Under the pieces are notes generated by a model that worked only from the letters and a program-made list of their open reading frames with translations, searched no databases and was not told the origin of the DNA. A program made the translations under genes and the position numbers. 64,000 nucleotides of DNA from Mesostigma viride (Eukaryota; Streptophyta; Mesostigmatophyceae; Mesostigmatales; Mesostigmataceae): positions 7,045,143 to 7,109,142 of the forward strand of contig RPFO01000065.1 in assembly GCA_009746045.1 (NCBI GenBank). Direction: 5' to 3'. Positions 33,997-59,363 of the stretch are shown piece after piece (positions within the stretch are counted from its first letter, which is position 1; each line of letters starts with the position of its first letter).

Positions 33997-36273
33997 TCAC
34001 TCGCACGTGCATACGTCCGGCTTCCACCGCGGCTCAGTTGCCCGCGAGTAGAACACCGTCATCGAGTCACTCAGTAGCGCACACGGCGCGTTCTCTGCCG
34101 TCGTCGACAACTCCTCCGAGCAGCACCGCCCCATGACGTCCCCCTTGCCCGGGTCATCCGCCCGCAACGCCATGCAGCAGCCGACAACCTCGGTGCCGAA
34201 AATGGGCTTCCCGCCGTCCTTGGCCGCGCGGCTGTGATACATCGGCAGCTCGAGACGGCCGACCTCGAGCCGCGAATGCCCCACGTACGCTTTGAGGACC
34301 ATGTTGCCGTTAAAGGGACCCTGGGGCCACCAGGGGAATGCCACGAGGCCCCTCTGGAACGCGGCGTAGGAGGAATCGTAGAGGCCCGCGTACGCAAGCG
34401 CGGCGGCGCGTGAGGTTGCGAACGCGAATCGGTCGTTGAGGCCGTACCAGCTCTCGGCTGCGGGCAGGTAGAGGTCGACAGGGGCGGCCCCCTGTGACGC
34501 GTGGGAGGCCGCCACCTGTTCGAGGACGTCCTCGGGAAACGGGTGCCACCACATGGCCTCCGTGCGCTTTTTTTTTTTCAGGGGGACAGAGCAAGGGAGA
34601 GAAGGGGAAAGGCGGAGGGGGGCAGAGGGGGGGGGAGGGTTTAGTATTTGCGTGTGTGAATGTGTGTGTATGTGTGCGTGGTGTTTGGGGAATTTTTCGT
34701 GCATGTAAAAGGAGTGGGGGTGGGGGAGGGGTATGGCATTCATGCCCACAGCACGCACAGTGAATGTGGGACGGCGAGAAGGTGGTCGCAGGTTCCAGTG
34801 GAAGGGCTCTGGGGTGTGGTAAATCGGCAAGAAAATGCACACATGGGCGATTGCGCAGAGTTGGCGGGTAGGCGTGGGAGGAGAAGGCTGGGTTGGGATT
34901 TCCCTCCAACCAGTGGCGGTGGGGAGAGACAGATAATGATTTTTGTCAACCGGCACACAGGCACGCGTGTAGCCAACAGGAGTGCGTATTAGCAACAGGC
35001 GTGCATGTAACAATTCTGTGTACTTGCAGGGCTGACCACCGCCCCCCAACATGGCCACACAATCATAAGGGAATGTACCCGTATAGAAAGGATCCTTATC
35101 CCACCCGCTAATTACCCTACAAACATCATTTAGTACTGCTAATCATTTTAGTATTGTCCTTTCTTAGGCCATGCGGTAGACAGCACTATGTTGTGGCTAG
35201 GCAACTCCCTAGGCAGCACTTCATCGCATCCTTCCGGCCACTCCCACCACGTGCGACGTCCCCGAGCTGACACTGCAATCTACACAAGTTAGCTGTCAAC
35301 TTCTGCTGCCCACGTCACGTGCTTTAAAAACCCCGACACCACATGGAGGTACCACACAGACAACGAGAGTTCATGTGAGCAAGCATAGTACTTTTACAAT
35401 TTTCATCATGTGCTATACAAATGCCCCTTCCATCACTTGATTTCAAAAGGGGGTGGCCCTGCAAAGCGGTAGTGCATTGCAGATCCCAGGGGACAGCGTA
35501 CCGCACCGCAGACAAAGGGCAGACAGGTTTGCACCTACCGAGAACACCACCCAATCGTACGGCCGGCCGCCCCGCGTGGTCCTCTCGTGGTTCTGGATCA
35601 GCTCCACGCATCCCTTCTTCTGCAGCCAGGGCTCCCAGAGACCAAACGGTCTTATACTGGTATCCGGGCCCCCTCCACACACAAACGCGGGAGGCTCATT
35701 CTTGCCACAAAAGCACCGGGCGTGGGGGAAGCGGTCCGGCAGCTTCTGTGGCTGCGGCTGCTTCGTATCGACCACGACGGACATGACGCGGCCCAACCCT
35801 AGCCGCGACAACTCCCGGCTTAGATCATGCCCCGTGCGCCCCGCGAAGCTGAGGTCGCCCGTCGCGTGGACGAAGACGTCGCCGTGGAAGGGGTCTACGA
35901 GGTACCGGTGCATGTTGTGAGCGGTGTCATTCAAGGAGGCGATGGGCCCAATCAGACAGATGGCCACCGAGGGCCCTGGCTGCCCTTTGCGGTTCAGCTG
36001 CCATCTCCGGGCCGCCGACTCGTCCGACCGTGTACTTGGAGGATCACTCGGCGGCCCTGCCCCGCTTGTCGTAGGGGGTTTTGACGCTAATGGCTCGTAT
36101 CCATGTTCACTAAGAGTTGATTTCTCCTGGCCCTCGGCTTCTGCTAGACCTTGCCCGGTAACAAAGTCCAACCCACCATGTCCCTGTCTCAGGGCAAGGA
36201 AAACAATATGAGACACTGAAAATAATAGCAGTGAGGACACTACGCTCCCGACAAAAGCAGTCCTCAGACGCAT
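33997..36273 (-). CDS. Type II membrane glycosyltransferase-like protein (434 residues, two exons)
   Basis: Proposed exons 36273-35539 and 34566-33997, phase 0. The donor is GTAGGT; the acceptor is the AG ending an A-rich tract at 34567, chosen because it restores WVVFSRTEAMWW across the junction. Residues about 8-30 form an uncleaved-looking hydrophobic signal anchor after MRLR, then a Ser/Pro-rich stem, then the lumenal domain from about residue 105. Landmarks are SVAICLIGP, DPFHGDVFVHATGD, YDWVVFSRTEAMWW and WYGLNDRFAFA. This order (conserved opening strand, D-x-F-x-H, YDWVxxSRxD-like, GLNDRFA) recalls an uncharacterised algal/plant family with a glycosyltransferase-type fold. The canonical acidic metal residue after SR is Glu rather than Asp. 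It probably acts in the Golgi; donor and acceptor sugars are unknown. The ATG at 36273 gives the anchor at the N-terminus. Confidence 0.72.
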
Positions 36274-36860
36274 TTTTGGGACCTCTCAGTAAAGGCTATC
36301 CCCCAGGTCTGGTTTGTTGGCCGCGCAGATTTTACCCTTACATTCCTCCCTAATGCTACTCACAGAATTCAGGGCAATGAACATAAAGATCCTCGGGTAT
36401 TCCAAACGGCATATTGCAATTCAGCTATGCGGCAGACAGCCTCGAATTAAGTACGCAGGCAGCCAATTACATTCAATCAAATACGCAAGAAGCCATTTTC
36501 ATTCCACATGAGCCGTGAGCGGCATTAGGCACCCACCCATGTTCATGCCGAGGAAAACTGGGTGCGCTTTGGACTCTTGTGCGAGATGACAGCCATGAGC
36601 CAGGTGGCACCGTGGCATGGCAGCACCCAATTTCTTCTCAGCACTCGGGTAAACTGCCACACGTCTCGGTGTGAGTTACGCCAGAATTAGAAACAATAAT
36701 ATTCAATGGACAAGGCCCATTCATGCCCACAGCAGCTCCCACAGCCGGCTGCCACAGCTGGCAATAATTACTGTTGTTGTTGTGTTGACTGTTGCCCACG
36801 CCACCTGGCAACACTGTTGTTGTTGTTGTTGTTGTTTGGCTTGTTGCCCACCTGGCAACA

Positions 36861-37701: not shown

Positions 37702-40700
37702 ATGGACCCACCAACCCCAGAACCCATTCTGGTTCGACTTCATCGCCTGAAGGAGGCTGTTGAAACATCCAGGACGGGCAGCCTGACTAACTTCGACAAT
37801 GTCAGTGCCTTTTGGGTTCTGTTCAATGCGGTGGTGGTCATCCTCATTCGGAAAACGGTACGTCCTCGATTAGCCTGCCCGGCAGCGCAATGCTGCGCTA
37901 CTTCATCGCTGGAAAAAATTAGAGCATTCCGGTGTTTCCGCGTGCATTTCTCTTCCTTCCCTGTGTTGAGCCCGCTCGACGCGGCCCGGCTTGACACCAC
38001 CCTGTACCTGCTATTTCACATAGAACCACGCTCGCATGACTATGTTTGACGTGGCACGAAACCGCTGTCCCACGCTGGACCCGCCCCTGCGCGCGCCCAG
38101 GGTTTCCTGTGCCTGGAAGTGGGCGGCGTGCAGGCCCGTAACGCCAAGAGCATCCTCATCAAGTACATCCTCGACATTTCACTCGTCATCCTCGTGTGGA
38201 TGCTCATCGGCTACCCCATCGCGTTCGGGGGCGGGGAGGAGGCGCGCGCGTTTGTGGGCGGGGGTGACTGGCCGTTTGGGGGCATGCAGCACGACTCGTA
38301 TGCGGCCTGGTTCTGGCACCTGGGGTTTGCCGCGATGGCGACATCGATCGTGAGCGGTGAGTGTGATGTCAATCTAAGTGAGGTGTGCCATATGGCAGTA
38401 GATAATGCGCCGCAATGACGAACGTCAACCGTGGACAGTGGGCATCATAAAGCGCGGTGAGGCATGCCGGATGGCACTAGGTAGCTAGCCACGATGGCCA
38501 TGTCCACCATGGGCTGTGAGAATTTGAGCTGGCACGGCGTGGCAGTGCCTTATTCGCCGCAATCGCCAGTATGAATCGTAATCAGGGAGCAGGTGGGTGC
38601 GGCAATGGCAGGCATATGGAGTGGTCAGAATCCAATGTTATAGGGCTGATGTATGATACTGGTGTATCTATGAATGTTATACGTCGTTCCCATGTTATAG
38701 GACTGACACTTGGATGCTGCGCTCTTTTGGGATGGCAGGTGTCACATCCCAAGACCCCATGCCCATGCCGGGTGCCTGGTTGCATGGCGTCGCATGTCGA
38801 AGATGTCCCACCCAGGTTACAAATGGCCGCATCATGGGGGCCCTGCCCACGTTAACCTAGCAAAATAGATGTGTGGGATTTTTGCATTGTTCGTCATGAC
38901 CAGCACCGATCATCACGTCATGAACATCACTTGTCCGCGAGGATCTGTGCCCCATTACCCAACCCAACTCAAACCAAACCAAACCAAACCAAACCAAACC
39001 AAACCAAACCAAACCAAACCAAACCAAACCAAACCAACCCAACCCCACCCGACCCGACCCGACCCGACCCGACCACAATCACGTCATTACCAACAACAAG
39101 CACCCGACAGCAAACGCCTCGCTTGACCCCATGAAGACAATCATACTCGTAATAACAAACAAATAGCAAATCAAATCATATCATCCTCATAATAATAACA
39201 AATAATCATGCTAATAATAACAAATAAGCATCCTCAAAATAAGCACAAAATCACACTCGTAATACTAACAAACCATCATTCTTATACTCACACTCGCACC
39301 AAACAGGTAGCCTGGCGGAGCGTTGCACGCTGCGCGCCTACCTGCTCACCAGCGCGAGCGTCGTGGGCGTGATCTACCCGTGCGCGGCGCACTGGGTCTG
39401 GTCCCAGTCCGCCTGGCTCTCACGCGATGACTCGCTCGGCCTCCAAGGCAGCCACCCAAGTGACGACGGCAGCACCAACCATGGGTCCGAGCTCGCGTTT
39501 CACGATTTCGGGGGCTCGGCCGTCGTCCACGTGTGCGCGGGGTCGGTGGCCTTGGTCGGCGCGGCCCTGCTCGGCCCACGATTGGCCCGCTTCCGACCCA
39601 CGGGGGAACGCCGCCAGGGGGGCCGCCGGTGGCACATCCGGGGGCATAACCTTGTCACGTCTGCCCTCGGCCTCTTCCTGATCTGGCTCACCTGGTACGG
39701 CTTTAATGCTGGCACCGCGTGCTCTTCGGGGGTCGAGTCCCTCCTCCTCCCGCTCTATGACATCCAACCCCCGCCCGCCCCCGCCCCCGCGAGCAATACC
39801 GGAAAAGGCATCGACGTCACACCGGCCAACCCGATGCACCAGCTGTACTTCTACGGGGTGAGCCACCCAGGGAAGTGCGCGGGCAGGTCGGGCGCGACGC
39901 GCGTCGTCATCAACACGTCAGTCGCGGCCTGCGCCGGCGGGATCGCGGTTCTGTTGGCGACAGCATTCCTCCAGTCCCTCCCCTGGCTCCGTCGTGGCCT
40001 CGCGGCGCGCCTCGCTCCCCCGTCGCTGAGGAGATTCCTGCGAGTGGGCGGCCTGGGGGGAGGGGGGGGGGCGGCCAGAGGACCCCGCAGCTGGACGACC
40101 GAGACTCGCTGCTGCATCCGTCACTTGGAAAGACAGGTGGCGGCAGCAAGCGCGCCGATTGGTTCACGCTGGATCTGTTCCCGGTCCTGAACGGTGTCCT
40201 GGGGGGTCTCGTTGCGGTCAGCGCAGGGGTTGATCGCTACTCCCCTTGGTCCTCTGCGGTCGTGGGGGCCATCGGGGCGGTGGCGTACATGGCGATGAGC
40301 GCGCTGCTGCTGAAGTTGCGGGTGGACGACCCACTGGATGCGGTGGGGGTCCACCTGGGGGGGGGCGCGTGGGGCACGATCGCGGTGGGGCTGTTCCAGT
40401 CGGGCGTGATGGATGGCAACGTGCATCAGCTGGGGTACCAACTGGTAGGTGTCGTGGTCGCTATAGTATAAAGTGTCTGTTGGGTAGTAAGTGGGTTGGG
40501 CGACGCTCATTGGTACGTATCTCTGTGGATGTTATGTCAGTACTCTGTGGCATGAATACATCCTTTCGTGCCTCCGTTGTGTTGCCAATCTGACTGCTGT
40601 GGTCTATCGTCCGCTCAATGTCACATCTCTAAATTGTGAAAGTTTGCCATTGTAGGGTGGGGATGCTCCTTCCTGTGCTCTCGCTGTGAAGATTTTTTAC

Positions 40701-41197
40701 ATTACACCAAGTTTTGGGTATTGGCATGGACCCGTATCGGCTATAAGATGGTGACACCCATCAGCTGGGGGTGCCAGGTGGCAGCTCTCTCTGTGGAGTC
40801 TTCATTGTACCTGTATGGGCGTGTACTAGTACACAGCTACCATAGCCATACCTAGTAGCTATAGGACAGTGACACCCACTGGCTTGGGTACCACGTGGTA
40901 GGATATCCCGTCTGTCTCTTCACTTTCTCAATGTGCGTGTGTGAGCAAAAGAGGAAAAAGCAAGATAGCAGTATTGATAAAATCAAGCATACTCCAAGTG
41001 AAACTAGCTCTGCCCACCAGTTACACCTGCCAGCTAACAGGAACAACCCCTTGAAAACTGCCTGCCACTGCCACTGCCGGCCACCCCAACCCCCCACCCC
41101 CACCCAAACATTTCCCCCCCACAAGACCCATCTCTTCACACCACCAACACCAACACCACCAACAACAACAACAACAAGAACACGCACGCACACACAA

Positions 41198-41255
<58 letters not shown>

Positions 41256-44200
41256 AAAACAACATCGAAACCCTTCTCCCAAACCCTCCCCCACCCACCC
41301 CACCAGCTGGGCCTTGTCACCATCGCGGCATGGGCGGCCACGCTCGCCCTTCTCCTCCTCGGCACCCTCCGCGTGACCCGCAACCTCCGCGTCTCCTTTG
41401 TCGCCGAGCAGTGCGGCCTCGACCTTCTCTTCCACAAGGGGCCCGCCTACCCGGAGTTCCTCGTCGAGAAGCTCAGGGATCTTCATGTGCCGGAGGGTTC
41501 CCAGGTGACGGTTCTCGCGCTCATGGTTGACGGCGACCGCGGCCTATTTTTCGCCGACCCGCTCGTCTACGAGTCCTCCATGGACACGCTCAAGTCCATC
41601 CTCGCGGGGCTGGTTAAGGCGTTCAACGTTGTGGACCTCAAGCCGTGCCGAGCGGGGATCATCGGGGTCGGCGTCACGGGGGGGGGCCAGGGGGAACGCG
41701 CCGCGGATGGCAGCATTGAGTTGGAGGGCGGCGACGACGAGGAGTGGCTGGGACTGCTCGCGTTCGATCGGCAGGAGCATGCACTCCATTTCTGCTACGT
41801 GCTCATGGCATCGATGTTGAGGCAGGACTGGGACCCAGAGCTGAACGAGATGCCTGCGGCCGCGCGCGTCATGGTGGGTTTTATTTTTTTTTTTTTTTGG
41901 GGGGGGGGCCTTGAGAGGGAAGGGGGGGGGGGGGGGGAGGAGCACGTCGTGGTGGTTTTTGTGGGGGGGCGGAGAGGGGTGATGTCCTGAGGGGGGAGGG
42001 CGGGTGAAAGCGCGTCATGGTGGGTGTTTGGGGGGGTGGGGACAGCCTGATTGTGGGTGTTGGGGGCCAGGGGGCGGGTCTTGAGAGGGGTTTGTTCGGG
42101 AGAGAGGGGTTTAAGAGGGGGGGTCTTCAGAGGGGCTTGTTGGGGAGAGAGGGGTTTAAGAGGGGGGGTCTTGAGAGGGGCTTGTTGGGGAGAGAGGTGT
42201 GCGGTCTGAAAACTAGATTGCGTTGCAACAAAGGGGGGATGCCTCGTCGCAGGAGGTGATTTTGCCTGTCTCACGTGAGTGTTTTGGGGGGCCTGCGCCC
42301 CCCAATATATGGTCCATGCTTCCAACCTGAAGAGAACGCAGGCAGTTCATAGTGGAGGGGGTGTGGTTTTGGTGGGTGTATTGCTGCACATGCTTTGGGT
42401 GAGCGCTCCCTCGTGTAAAGTTCTTTGGATGATGCGACTCGCAATCTCTAGCAATTCTCCGCAACAGTGCTACGGTTAGCTGGTATGCGTTTCTGGCGTG
42501 CATTCCTTAGTCATACATTCACGGTCTTATGGGAGCGCTTTGCTGGGCAAAACGGTCACCATCATTTGAGTGCGCGTGCATACTTGAGTGCACGGTCACA
42601 TCCTAAAGCGCTGGCTTGGCTGACGAACAAAAATAACGATGACGGTTGCTATTGGAATTTGCTGACAAGCACGGATGTAATCACCTTTGTTCACACATAC
42701 ACACACACCAAAAACATTTTACCTTCCCACCCCATTTCTTCACTTCACGCAGGACGCGATGGGCGATGTCCTCTACAATGGCCTGCGGCTAAAAATAGGC
42801 ATGGACACGGGTGACGTGGGCGACATGCTGCACAAGGCCATGTCACACAATGCGGATGACGCAAGGGCCAACGCCAAGGGAAGCCGGCGCGTCTCGCTAG
42901 GCTCTTCGCAGTACCCCCGCCAGCAGCAGCACCCGGTGGTGGCGTGGGACGTGTATGACCTGCCGGTACGTTTACTAGAGGGCTAGACCCTGCGCCCTGA
43001 ACCTGATGGTGGCGTGGGATGTGTATGACCTGCCGGTACGTCTAGAGGGCTAGACCCTGCGCCCTGAACCTGATGGTGGAGTGGGATGTGTATGACCTGC
43101 CGGTACGTTTACTAGAGGGCTAGACCCTACGCCCTGAACCTGATGGTGGCGTGGGATGTGTATGACCTGCCGGTACGTTTACTAGAGGGCTAGACCCTAC
43201 GCCCTGAACCTGATGGTGGCGTGGGATGTGTATGACCTGCCGGTACGTTTACTAGAGGGCTAGACCCTACGCCCTGAACCTGATGGTGGCGTGGGACGTG
43301 TATGACCTGCCGGTACGTCTAGAGGGCTAGACCCTACGCCCTGAACCTGATGGTGGCGTGGGACGTGTATGACCTGCCGGTACGTTTACTAGAGGGCTAG
43401 ACCCTGCGCCCTGAACCTGATGGTGGCGTGGGACGTGTATGACCTGCCGGTACGTTTACTAGAGGGCTAGACCCTACGCCCTGAACCTGATGGTGGCGTG
43501 GGATGTGTATGACCTGCCAGTATGCGCACGAACAGGTTAGGGGAACCGCCCCTTTGTCCAGTATGTGGGCTTGCCAGTGTTCGCACGAACAGGTTAGGGG
43601 GACTGCCCCTTTGCCCAGTATGTGCGCTTGCCGGTACGTGCACGAACAGGTTAGGGGGACCGCCCCTTTGCCCAGTATGTGCGCTTCCCAGTATGCGCAC
43701 GAACAGGTTAGGGGGACCGCCCCTTTGCCCAGTATGTGCGCTTGCCGGTACGCGCACGAACAGGTTAGGGGAACCGCCCCTATGCCCAGTATGTGCGCTT
43801 CCCAGTATGCGCACGAACAGGTTAGGGGGACCGCCCCTTTGCCCAGTATGTGCGCTTGCCGGTACGCGCACGAACAGGTTAGGGGAACCGCCCCTATGCC
43901 CAGTATGTGCGCAAGGGGTCGAGGGAAGATCCCCCACGGCTCACCCCGGGCCCTTGATTTTGTTGCAATAGAGGGGCCCTTGATCTGTTACAATAGACGG
44001 GCCCTTGATCTGGTACAATAGACGAGCCCTTGATTTGTTACAGAAGACGGGCCCTTGATTTGTTACAACAGCTACAGTAGGCGGCCAGCCTTACGCCCGG
44101 TTGATATTGAAAGAGAAGGTGGGATGAAACGCGAGATCCTTTTTCCTGTTAAGCTTGTTCTGCTGTTGTGCCTTATTATCTCCAGTAGCGAAGGCGTCTG

Positions 44201-47200
44201 AGGCTGTTGTCATGGTACTGCTGTGGATCGAGCCTACTCTTGGGAGTGGAGGGGGGTATATGGGGGCGTGCTTGGGGTTGTTGGTTGGGAGGGCGAGGGT
44301 GCATGGGAGAAGAGCATCATGGTGCCTGCTGATGCTGATAGCATCAACCTACCTAGGAATGGCTTACCTCCAAAGTACTATCTTAACGGTGATTATGGCA
44401 CCGCAGGCAGGCGCTCCCGTCTTCACTTGTGACCGGAACGGCTTTCCATAAAGTTATAGTTATATTGCCATTAACCAAAATCTACCTGGCACTCCCCTCT
44501 TGACTTTACTTGATAAGATTGACTCTCCCGCGCACATTAATTTGGATGCCTAACATCCACACATCTCACATGCACTCGACACCCATGGTCCCCCCCTCCT
44601 CCCCAACCCCCTTTCCCCTCCCTCCCTTCCCCCAACCCCCTTTCTCCTCCCCCTGCCCCCCCCGCTGCCCCCCACCATCACCCCCAGGTGGTCCAACGTG
44701 CGCTATCCCTCTGCGAATGCGTGCCCGAGGGGCCCGGCCTCTACGCGTCCGACTCTGCTATACTTGGGGTGGCCGGCAACGCCGAGATGCCCTTCAAGCT
44801 CTACCACCACGGCGAGCACGAGCACCTGCGGCTGGCCGACCAGAGACGCCCCACCACTACATCCGCCCATACCAAGAGTACCGCCGCCAGTGCCGCCAGG
44901 AAAAACCGTCCGACGGGCCCGTATGGCGGCAGCAAGCCATGGGGCGGGCGGGGCGGGCGTGACGGAAATAGCAGCGACATGGAATCAGACGGCGCGCACG
45001 CCGCGCTCGCTCGCGCGATAGCTCGCGTCACAGGTGTCGACCCTCCCCTGGGCCGGTCAGCCCACCGGAGGGCCGTCGTGTACAGGCTGGGCTTGGGGCC
45101 CGATGGTGGGGCGGGGCCCTCTAATTCCGCCACCCGCCGGCATGCCGGGGCGGGTGATGGCGGGGGGGGCAGGGACAGCCACCTCTACGGCCCACCCTCG
45201 AAGCGCTACGATAGATCCAGCTCCCATCCTATCAGCTCTATCACTTCCGGGAAGTCCTTGGCTTCCGTGACCTCTACCGGCCGTGACTGTGCGGCGGAGT
45301 CGGGTACCGGGAGCAACGGCGGCGCGCCAGGTGGCGGCAGCGGGAGCAGCGGCGGCGGCAGCGGCAGCCTGCCAAGTGGCGCCAGCGGGAGAGACGCCGT
45401 GCTCGACCCAGCAAGTGGCGGCGTGTCCGCCGATGCCTCCGCGGCGGCGGCGGCAAACCAGACGCGGATCCTCCAGGTGGTCTTCCCGCAACTGCCCCCT
45501 GCCCCCGTGCTGCGGCCGATTCACACAAGGCCACTCTCTCCCTCGATCCTGGACGCGCCCGGTTTCATTCGCAAGGCGCTCTCCCGTGCCGAAGCGGGCG
45601 ATAGCGAGGGGGACTTTGCCGACGATGTTGACCGTACGATTGACGGCGGCGGTCTATCGATCCACGGTGACGATGGAGGGTCCCGCGAGCTTGCCCGAGG
45701 CCATGATGATGGGAATGCCCTCTCGACGCCTTCCCGCGGCTCCCACCTTGGTGGGCCTGCGAGGGCCAGGGAAGACAGCAATGGCGGCAGTGACGCGCGC
45801 TGGGCTATGGCAGGGAGGAGAGTGTGTTCTGCCGCACGCCACGCTTGGGGTGTGCTCGCACGCTGCCGCGCAGCCGTGTGGGCTCCACGCGTCGACAACG
45901 AGGGCAGGTACCAGGTATCCAGCTGGACAGGCCTTGGGGACCCTGGGGGGAGCGCGAGAGGAGGACAGGTGGGAGGAGGAGGAGGGGCGGGGGAGGGCGG
46001 CGGCGACCGTCCTTGGGGGGAATCGGGCGGAGGCACCCGGGGCGGTGACGGAGCATATCCATCACATGGGCGTTCGAACTCGCTCGGCCACGAGTATGGG
46101 AGTGTCAGTGGTGGCCAAGCAGGCATTGGAGTTGGGGCGTCCAGCGGGTTCGGTCGCTCGCTGTCCGGCGATCCGTGGCACCTGGGGGCGAACGTCGGGG
46201 ATGACTTGCTGTCCGGTGTGCCCAAGGAGGACCCCGCCGACTTCCTCACGTTTGCATCGACGTCCGTCGACGGCCTGAGCGCGCTCATGGCGTGGAACGA
46301 GCCGCTCACGAGGGCCTCGCTCGCGCTGGCGACCGGCACCATGCGCCGCCGGCTGGCCGAGCACGGCGGTTATGGGTGCCTCGAGAACGGGCAGGGCGGT
46401 TTCCTGATCGCGTTCCCGAGCGTCTGCTCCGCGCTGGCGTGGGCTGCCGACGTCCAGCTGGACCTGCTCTCGCTGCCCTGGGACCCGGCACTGCTGGCGC
46501 ACCCAGACGCGCAGCCGGTCGACATGCCTCGATCCTCAAGCAGCGGCGGGCATCCGGGGTGTGCCACCCCACGCATGGGGCCATCGACATCAGGGACGTG
46601 GGGGGGTTGGGGCGTGGCCACGCCTCGGCCCGCTGCCAACCCTAGTAGTGCGGGGGTTGGAAACGCAGCCCTAAACCCTCGTAGTTGGGGGGAAAGTGGG
46701 AACTCTGCCCCCAACGGGGGAGTTGGAAATTATGCCCCTGGGGGGGGGAGTGGGAACAGTCAGCCCATGGGGGTGATATCGACACACCCACTCACACCAT
46801 CGGGGCCCAATGTCGGCGCGAGCAGTGCCCAGGATGCGCCTGCTTCGATGGCCCAAACGCCCGACAACGCTGGGCCGGGCAGAGGGGCCGCGATCCTCAG
46901 CTCGATTGTGGAGATTGCCACCCCCGTCAATGTGAGCCCTGCCACCCCCAGGGCTGGGAACCCAGCGGTCACAGGGGCAGGGGCAGCGTCCACACCGGGA
47001 CCGACCCCACCAGGTGCATCCTCGAGTGGCCCAGGGAGCACACCGACGGTGTCTCCCCCCGGGGTGCCCCCTCCTCCGGTGTTGTTACTGCAGGGTCTTC
47101 GCGTGGGCATCGGCGTCCACAGCGGGAGGCTCGCGCAGAACGACGTGTGGGCGCACCCGGCGACGGGACGCGCGGTCTACAGCGGGGTGACGGTGAAGGA

Positions 47201-48278
47201 AGTCAGCGAGCTGCGCCGGTGGGCGTTCTGTGCGCAGATTCTGGTCAGCGGAATGGCAGTCCGGGTGCTGACGCTCGAGGTTGCCCAAGAGGAGGCAGCG
47301 GAGGCAGCCGCGGGGAGGGGGAGGGCGCAGGCAGCGGCCGCGGCCGCGGCGGCGGCTTTTACTGCCGCGAACGTCAGGGCAACATCTCTGGGGGGGACCC
47401 CTTTGGCCTTGTCCCGAGCGCACTCGGCGAAGAACGCGGGCAACATGGCCTCATCATCATCTCCCAGGTTCGCCCCATACCCCAATGACTCGAAATCCCT
47501 GGGGGTAATGGGGAGTGGGGACCCTGGGACCAGGCCTCTGGGGGCTTTCTCACTGCCCCATCACCCTCGTCCATCCCACCTCGATCCTCACTCGCAGTCA
47601 TGTACATCCCCCTGGGCACCCGGCCCAATGGAGGAGGCGGTCAGCGGAATGGCCGTGCTGCGGGCTTATGATGGCCTACTGTTTGGGGAATGGGACAAGC
47701 ACATGCCGGGCCACGATGCGTACTATAGCGGTCACTATGCCGCCGGGCAGCCACACGGGGGCCACCCCAACCCTCAGGGTCCCGGGGGGCCCAGCTCCCT
47801 GGGCTCTGCGGCCGCGGCGTCGCTCCGGATGCTGGGCGGCGGGTCGGGCCGCGGTGGGTTTGCGGCGATCAGCGGGCTGAATCAGCCCTTTTTGTCGTCG
47901 TCATCGGCGATGGGGTCTCTGGCATCCGCGACTCGGTTCGTGTTCGAGTACCTGCCCGCCCCACTGCTGCTCCGTCGGGCCTACTGGCCGCTGCTCCGGC
48001 AGGAACGGCTGATCCGGCTCAACCTGGGGCTGGTCCCCTCGGGCGACTGGAGTGCCGAGTTTGGGCAGTGGGGGCTGCTGGGGGGGATGGGCGGCGGGGG
48101 TGGCGGCAGCACAGCGGGGGGCTTGTATATGACCGGGACTGATTGGACCCCCGGGGAACAGGTCGACGGCAGTACGCGCAGCAGCCAGTATCTAAGGGCC
48201 CCGTGCACCTTGGCGGAGCTGCTTCACTTCACCGGCGACAGCAGTGGGGGTGGGGGGGCGGGGGATTGGGCAGCTTAG
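37702..48278 (+). CDS. Amt/Mep/Rh-type ammonium transporter fused to two degenerate class III nucleotidyl-cyclase domains
   Basis: Proposed exons 37702-37857, 38101-38356, 39307-40444, 41307-41873, 42753-42965, 44688-48278, about 1,973 residues. Exon 3 needs one extra base in the G runs at 40055-40071. Residues about 25-568 are an Amt channel: TGFLCLEVGGVQARNA, VSGSLAER, YPCAAHWVWS, DFGGSAVVHV (pore Asp and first His), WYGFNAGTA, INTSVAACAG, DDPLDAVGVH (second His) and the terminal GLDLLFHKGPAYPEF. Cyclase domain 1 (about 575-835) is split over exons 4-6: VTVLALMVDGD, LRLKIGMDTG, VVQRALSLC, GLYASDSA. A Ser/Gly-rich linker of about 450 residues follows, then cyclase domain 2 (about 1290-1640): LTFASTSVDGLSAL, GGFLIAFPSV, LRVGIGVHSG, QILVSGMAV. 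The usual metal Asp is Met in domain 1 and Ser in domain 2, so catalysis is doubtful. Presumed topology: transporter in a membrane, cyclase pair in the cytosol. Introns repeat their own splice boundaries. Confidence 0.85.
38968..39070. repeat. (AACCA)n pentamer repeat
   Basis: About fourteen AACCA units grading into CCGAC units, in intron 2 of the Amt-cyclase gene. Confidence 0.95.
42930..43520. repeat. 66-70-bp tandem array copying the end of Amt-cyclase exon 5 with its donor
   Basis: The exon end GTGTATGACCTGCCG and the donor GTACGT at 42966 are followed by eight more copies, at about 43035, 43101, 43171, 43241, 43311, 43377, 43447 and a last altered one at 43517. Coding bases for VAWDVYDLP are preserved in each. 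Confidence 0.93.
43512..43915. repeat. Second tandem array, unit about 59 bp (GCGCACGAACAGGTTAGGGG..)
   Basis: Seven units beginning where the previous array ends, joined by a hybrid unit CTGCCAGTATGCGCACG. A third short array (GGGCCCTTGAT..TACAATAGAC, about 25 bp, five units) follows at 43947-44070. Confidence 0.92.
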
Positions 48279-56620: not shown

Positions 56621-56886
56621 TTACATGGCAGACCCATTTTGGACTTACGTAAATTTACCGTAGTGCATGTATGCCATGTGAATAATTAATTAGTGCACGG
56701 TTTTGGTGACATGTAAACATTCATTGTTCATCTACTCAACAAGCCTGACACGCCTATATAATTTGTTTGGCGATTGGACAAGTAGTTTGGCCTGTGCACT
56801 AGCGTGGCAGGCCCCTTTTGCCTAGTGTTAGGGACTTTGGGAATTTGTCCCTAGTCTTGAATTCGACGCCGCGCCGGTACTGCACC

Positions 56887-58310
<1,424 letters not shown>

Positions 58311-59363
58311 CACTACAATACGCTTCCGCGGACACCTTTTTCAGCGGGGAAAGTGCCCCCGGGCCTCCGGGGCAAATTCAGCAAGCGCTGCGGAACTTAG
58401 ATACTAAAATTTCGTTTTTGGTTCGTACCGTACAGCCAATCATTTTGCGCCCGGATCAAATTGTGATCTGGGCACTGAACACGAAATTTTCAGCGGAACG
58501 TACGAAACACCAAAGCAACTACAGAAAATTTTCAGTGACGAAACTGTAGTACCTTGTACCAAGTAAAATGTAGTAGGACTTCGCTAAATTCACGTTCGGA
58601 ATTTTTCCCCGCAAGATTCCCCCGCAAGATTCCCCCGCACGATTCCCCCCGCTAGGTTCAGGCTCCAGTCGATGCTCGCCAAATGGCGCAAAAAAAGAAA
58701 CATATGTTAAAATCAACGGTGCGAATCCTCGTTACCGCTCGGGTAACATTCTCACTCATTTCGCGTCTCCTACGAACCGTATTGTAGTGGTTGTTGTTGT
58801 TGTTGTTGTTGTTGCGGTTGTTGTTGTTGTTGTTGTTGTTGTGTCCCAACTGTTGGTACTGCATGCACCGTACGACCCAATATTTCGGTACTGACGCCGT
58901 ACGAATGCAGTAAAATTTGTACGAATCAAAGATACGGGTCGACTCGTGACTTGGCACTCGTAATTGCCAAGTACTGGCCCGCGGGGGTGGCTGATGGATC
59001 CAAAATAAAAAAAAGGCGGCTGGCGTGCCTGCATGAATGTAATTAATTAATTTTGGAAGACGAAGCTGCCCCATAGCCCCGCATGCCACAAACGCTATAG
59101 CGGAGAATGAAGATAAACGAAATTTTACGTGACAACGCCAATCATGTTAAAACAAGTACCCTGTCAACGCAATATTGTACGCGTTAGGCGACAAATTGCA
59201 GGAGATGGTCGACAATCTCGAGGGCGGGCGCCCCTCACGCAGGCCTCGCGTGCAGGCAGGTCGAGGCCCGAGCAGTCCTCCACCTCCTCTTCTGATGAGG
59301 AGGGAGGGGAGGAGGATGACACGCAGGATCAGGGTAACGATGAGCAGGAAGACGCGACCTTAA
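58311..59363. other. Sequence between the GTT tract and the TTAA-flanked element
   Basis: No clear gene. GATTCCCCCGCAA is repeated near 58610-58645. A plus-strand frame at 59129-59374 ends in an acidic Ser/Glu/Asp-rich segment, exactly at the TTAA border of the neighbouring element; its nature is unknown. Confidence 0.4.

Follow-up and report, generated by a model that had tools for sequence, protein, structure and literature searches.

Ammonium channels of the Amt family joined to a signalling module are already known, and among the closest described systems is Ks-Amt5 of Candidatus Kuenenia stuttgartiensis (PDB 6eu6), an Amt which, according to passages of PMC5764959, no longer transports and now drives a fused histidine kinase. 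Here we report that a 64,000-nucleotide window of Mesostigma viride DNA (assembly GCA_009746045.1, contig RPFO01000065.1, positions 7,045,143 to 7,109,142 of the forward strand) holds a gene whose predicted product is one membrane protein: an Amt channel that runs straight into a pair of cyclase-like domains, here called D1 and D2. As far as the literature matches listed show, a degenerate class III pair attached to a eukaryotic Amt is new; no Amt-cyclase fusion appeared in titles or abstract openings among those matches, which is no proof of absence.

As in Ks-Amt5, the Amt domain of the predicted protein precedes a cytosolic transducer at the C-terminus; the outputs differ, being a histidine kinase there and a cyclase-like pair here. 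No kinase was found among the Pfam matches of the scanned pieces, the D1-D2 linker lying outside the scan. The Amt domain matches Pfam PF00909 (Ammonium_transp) at 263.9 bits (E 2.7e-78, cut-off 23.2), the sole family in the first 569 residues, and TIGR00836 at 282.9 bits, under its subfamily cut-off of 343.3. When the sequence is aligned to solved Amt structures, and the residue roles of AmtB and Ks-Amt5 are applied, the pore Asp falls at residue 204, the twin His at 212 and 475, the Phe positions at 128 and 270 and the filter Trp at 169; the C-tail GLDLLFHKGPAYPEF is present, and the filter Ser position is Thr. The initial annotation had read a full Amt channel from such motifs, and the family match, pore Asp, both His and C-tail bear this out. 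The best-scoring solved Amts are the 8qj3 and 8qpf chains (644 and 661 residues) and Ks-Amt5, followed by A. fulgidus Amt1 (2b2f) and E. coli AmtB.

The filter Trp, Phe gate and twin His of Ks-Amt5 are all kept, as are the two acidic residues of its extra ammonium site (Glu 58 and Asp 77, identical). The remaining five of the seven site residues, as named in a part of PMC5764959, differ here (Thr to Ser at 134 and 137, Gln to Lys at 51, Asn to Tyr and Thr to Ile), and the complete second high-affinity site of the Ks-Amt5 type is absent. Of the three bulky residues given there as blocking the pore of Ks-Amt5, two correspond to Leu and Gly in this protein, and the pore may therefore be open. Given these differences in site and pore, the protein is not a copy of Ks-Amt5, and its Amt domain may still transport.

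Spliced as follows, the genomic sequence reads as an open frame of 1961 residues in seven exons, with GT..AG at every junction.

37702..37857, plus strand: exon 1, with the start codon, N-terminus and most of Amt helix 1 (GT donor in phase 0; alignment to Amt structures)
38101..38356, plus strand: exon 2, from the end of Amt helix 1 to the Phe-gate helix (Phe codon 38326-38328)
39307..40043, plus strand: exon 3, with the Amt Trp (39399-39401), pore Asp (39504-39506), first pore His (39528-39530), FNAG motif and an extended loop
40044..40078, plus strand: joint of exons 3 and 4, a 35-nucleotide GT..AG stretch of 89% guanine plus cytosine (GC), with unequal reading frame on either side
40079..40444, plus strand: exon 4, the second half of Amt with the second pore His (40352-40354); the public model Mv10965 starts at 40289
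41307..41873, plus strand: exon 5, the last Amt helix, the C-tail (41415-41459) and, from about 41490, the N-terminal half of D1
42753..42965, plus strand: exon 6, the middle of D1 (DVLYNGLRLKIGMDTG)
44688..48278, plus strand: exon 7, whole
44688..44843, plus strand: exon 7, first part, the C-terminal half of the D1 core (Asn to Gln at 44694-44696, Arg to Ser at 44706-44708)
44844..46223, plus strand: exon 7, a low-complexity linker rich in Gly, Ser and Ala; a weak candidate for the last D1 strand, ILQVVFPQL, starts at 45468
46224..47282, plus strand: exon 7, D2, a degenerate class III cyclase homology domain interrupted by a long insert (46521-47069)
47283..48278, plus strand: exon 7, end, a low-complexity C-terminal tail and the stop codon

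The boundary between Amt and D1 lies inside exon 5, and this joint therefore needs no splice. The public model P0001 (jgi/Mesvir1 Mv10965-RA.1), whose label we read as that of Mesostigma viride, a green alga of the streptophytes, spans this boundary; it is identical to residues 454-1961 and has the last three junctions in common, and as it begins within exon 4 it lacks exons 1-3. Exons 2-7 have a third-position GC of 0.75 to 0.87, and exon 1 has 0.60. Exon 7 is free of stops over 1196 codons; in 300 six-frame Markov simulations of that exon, no open run exceeded 535 codons. The joint of exons 3 and 4 is unlike the other five introns, which are 243-1722 nucleotides long with 48-59% GC; it could reflect either a microintron or an indel that arose where the assembly passes through a G run. 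We infer that exons 3 and 4 join into one Amt, because the two sides give ordered, complementary parts of one Amt fold. The one-gene architecture and the in-frame GT..AG exons proposed in the initial annotation were upheld at every junction, with the reservation that the frame from exon 3 to exon 4 relies on a short GC-rich stretch that had passed unremarked. The terms “ammonium” and “cyclase” have no occurrences in the portion of the main text of the NIES-296 genome paper that was covered (PMC6947507).

A 70-bp minisatellite of 8.5 copies (42937-43522) crosses the boundary of exon 6 and intron 6, and its unit carries the 3' end of exon 6 with the splice donor; reading on beyond the first exon 6 donor meets a stop after a few codons. 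Two adjoining tandem arrays lie in intron 6, at 43515-43912 (57 bp, 7.0 copies) and 43947-44068 (25 bp, 4.8 copies).

By profile, homologue and alignment-guided fold comparison, D2 is clearly related to class III cyclases. The fold match is a Foldseek ranking of entries, which does not exclude other folds. The D2 core had no Pfam or NCBIfam match above cut-off (PF00211 reached E 0.24 for its C-terminal half), and a PDB sequence search gave 1fx2 at E 0.051, ranked under two designed-protein chains resembling chance matches; in the profile test for a last strand, the D2 tail gave no score. The homologue P0010 is a tandem class III cyclase with a long insert in each domain at about the place of the D2 insert; unlike the Mesostigma protein, it has no Amt match. 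Residue calls in D2 were made from an alignment that includes P0010 and so handles the long insert, and the roles given to residues of D1 and D2 are those generally known for class III cyclases. All five of the catalytic or substrate residues examined are changed in D2: Ser and Gln replace the metal-binding Asp pair, Leu the substrate Lys, and Lys and Glu the transition-state Asn and Arg. The T. brucei receptor-type adenylate cyclases GRESAG4.1 and GRESAG4.3 (1fx2, 1fx4), whose sensor domain differs from Amt, keep in the aligned stretch the first and second metal Asp that D2 lacks.

D1 is probably a divergent sister of D2, since it scores high against P0010 with D2 and low against bacterial cyclases. 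A bacterial-only profile gave 6.4 bits (7.3 with loops cut out), and 6.4 was reached by one of 1000 shuffles and by none of 200 decoys from open reading frames of the window. With P0010 and D2 added to the profile the score rose to 16.0-19.5 bits, and against a three-sequence profile of P0010 and D2 it was 37.4-44.9 bits, with none of 1000 shuffles as high in either case; in these tests hmmsearch reported 620-694 of each 1000 shuffles, the remainder scoring too low to list. A comparison by hhalign gave a probability of 94% against the P0010 and D2 set, and of 3% (E 0.013) against the bacterial set. No Pfam or NCBIfam match to the D1 core exceeded its cut-off, and a PDB sequence search with D1 found nothing. 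The candidate last strand at 45468 scored 1.2 bits, matched by 9 of 1000 shuffles, and adding it to D1 brought no gain (6.0 bits, none of 1000 shuffles as high). Of the two class III cyclase-like domains named in the initial annotation, one is therefore clear and the other probable. The annotation had held that the want of a cyclase-family hit would refute it; at the Pfam cut-off neither domain has one, and for D2 the other lines of evidence overturn this result.

The pair has likely lost catalysis, judging from the residues at the active-site positions. D1 has Met at the first metal Asp and Gln and Ser for the Asn and Arg, so that at least three catalytic positions are lost, and loss of its second metal Asp is uncertain. 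Neither domain shows a complete half-site from which a C1-C2 heterodimer with complementary halves could be built, in contrast to P0010, where C1 keeps both metal Asp and C2 keeps the Asn and Arg, and where a complete catalytic site is plausible. The working C1-C2 cyclase pair that had been implied, with no remark on the missing residues, is not supported, and direct output of cyclic AMP or cyclic GMP is unlikely, because none of the five residues examined is kept in D2 and at least three are lost in D1.

To place this architecture among its relatives, we used searches that take proteins of limited length sharing five-residue words and would overlook fusions that are short or divergent. With the Amt part as query, truncated to 1376 residues, 7993 candidates were scored and nine matches obtained: P0001, the eukaryotic Amt-Amt-kinase P0002 and seven Amt fusions, P0003-P0009. 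According to precomputed Pfam labels, with the meanings that we take them to have, P0003, P0004 and P0006 carry Amt with kinase and response-regulator labels, P0005, P0007 and P0008 carry Amt with MCP, and P0009 has Amt with PF00563 and PF00990. P0003-P0008 look prokaryotic (P0008 is from a Kiloniellaceae bacterium). They resemble the Mesostigma protein in having an Amt fused to a signalling module, with 32-37% identity to its Amt part in P0003 and P0005-P0008, and differ in their kinase or MCP output. P0002, a transcript, is also a eukaryotic Amt-based fusion and is 35% identical over the Amt part, but has two Amt domains and a protein kinase output. A segment of P0002 between Amt and kinase looked cyclase-like by eye only. 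It scored 6.3 bits against bacterial cyclases (one of 1000 shuffles as high), 9.4 against the extended profile (none of 1000) and -1.7 against P0010 with D2 (720 of 1000), and had no PDB or Pfam match; with one profile in three above all shuffles, the likeness is not established. No second Amt-cyclase fusion was confirmed among the relative-search matches.

Based on these observations, we suggest that the protein is an ammonium transceptor whose pseudo-cyclase pair would transmit by contact or binding, a proposal that we hold with evenly balanced confidence. Ammonium binding to, or passage through, the Amt trimer would move the C-tail, and because this tail continues into D1, its movement could alter the packing of D1 and D2 on each other or on a separate partner. 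The signal would then leave by protein contact or nucleotide binding, without synthesis of a cyclic nucleotide. The sensor-transducer of the initial annotation is retained as the most likely role, and given up as an active cyclase pair. A more specific version, in which a eukaryotic ammonium receptor made of an Amt channel and a catalytically dead cyclase pair relays ammonium status by conformation and partner binding, is distinctly less probable. Several points weigh against the transceptor proposal. No second species with this architecture was found by the word-based search, and conservation thus lends no backing to a function. Only two of the seven residues of the Ks-Amt5 high-affinity site are identical, with two conservative and three changed. 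The single-sequence structure model of D2 is unusable (mean predicted local distance difference test score 35.2), so the fold match depends on alignment rows that are themselves cyclases. Against bacterial cyclases alone, D1 does not reach significance, and the column of its second Asp is Gln in one alignment, with acidic residues (GGDDEEW) in the adjoining insert.

The main rival reverses the direction of control: the pseudo-cyclase pair would sense a nucleotide or a partner and gate the Amt through the C-tail, making the protein a regulated transporter and not a receptor. Such an arrangement would suit the direct joining of D1 to the C-tail and the retention of the examined pore residues (with Thr for the filter Ser). 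Plant AMT1 tails carry the motif GMDMTRHGG with a phosphorylated Thr, and GLDLLFHKG here has no counterpart of that Thr. Contacts of the C-tail and loop 5 are important for Amt allostery, as stated in a part of PMC5764959. We nevertheless consider this reversal unlikely, as the Ks-Amt5 sensor is among the nearest Amt relatives of solved structure, and the loss of the substrate Lys from D2 makes it doubtful that a nucleotide is sensed at the former site.

It is also improbable, and more so, that the cyclase part of an ancestral fusion is simply decaying without a role behind an Amt that remains a transporter. The strong divergence of D1, the large low-complexity insert of D2 and the missing catalytic residues could be taken in this sense, but one would expect stops to build up in a 3.6-kb exon that was decaying, whereas exon 7 is open throughout, and third-position GC is high in exons 2-7. 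That two neighbouring genes, or a misassembly, have been taken as one gene is very improbable: the public model does lack exons 1-3 and the 35-nucleotide junction is required, yet the Amt-to-D1 boundary falls within one exon, that model reads through it, and exons 1-3 and 4-5 give complementary, ordered parts of one Amt fold. Least probable of all is an ammonium-regulated adenylate or guanylate cyclase that is active through unconventional catalytic residues. D2 retains the overall class III domain, the tandem order resembles P0010, and in D1 the acidic residues next to the place of the second Asp could still supply one metal ligand; the extent of the residue changes in both domains and the lack of an evident complementary site like that of P0010 led us to reject it.

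Yeast Mep2 acts as a transceptor but carries no fused domain of this kind. The Mesostigma Amt, with its own cyclase-like module, provides a named gene for asking whether an Amt can serve as a receptor that binds ammonium, and would make a non-catalytic, transducing role of the class III fold testable. In Chlamydomonas, ammonium chemotaxis continues without the major importer AMT4, from which the authors infer a dedicated receptor; COP5/HKR1 is placed upstream in this pathway, and its cyclase domain is without key residues of the functional COP6 cyclase (passages of PMC11621555). If the proposal is true, the gene would be a candidate ammonium-binding receptor for chemotaxis or nitrogen status in a flagellate alga. 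This unusual architecture, seen at the sequence level in one genome, bears on how green algae detect ammonium.

Elsewhere in the window, the minus strand at 35446-36285 has an open frame of 280 residues, in divergent orientation to the Amt gene, whose product would begin with a hydrophobic segment near its N-terminus. At 56802-58404 there is a trinucleotide repeat of about 1.4 kb with six open frames, each dominated by a single residue present in 474-481 copies.
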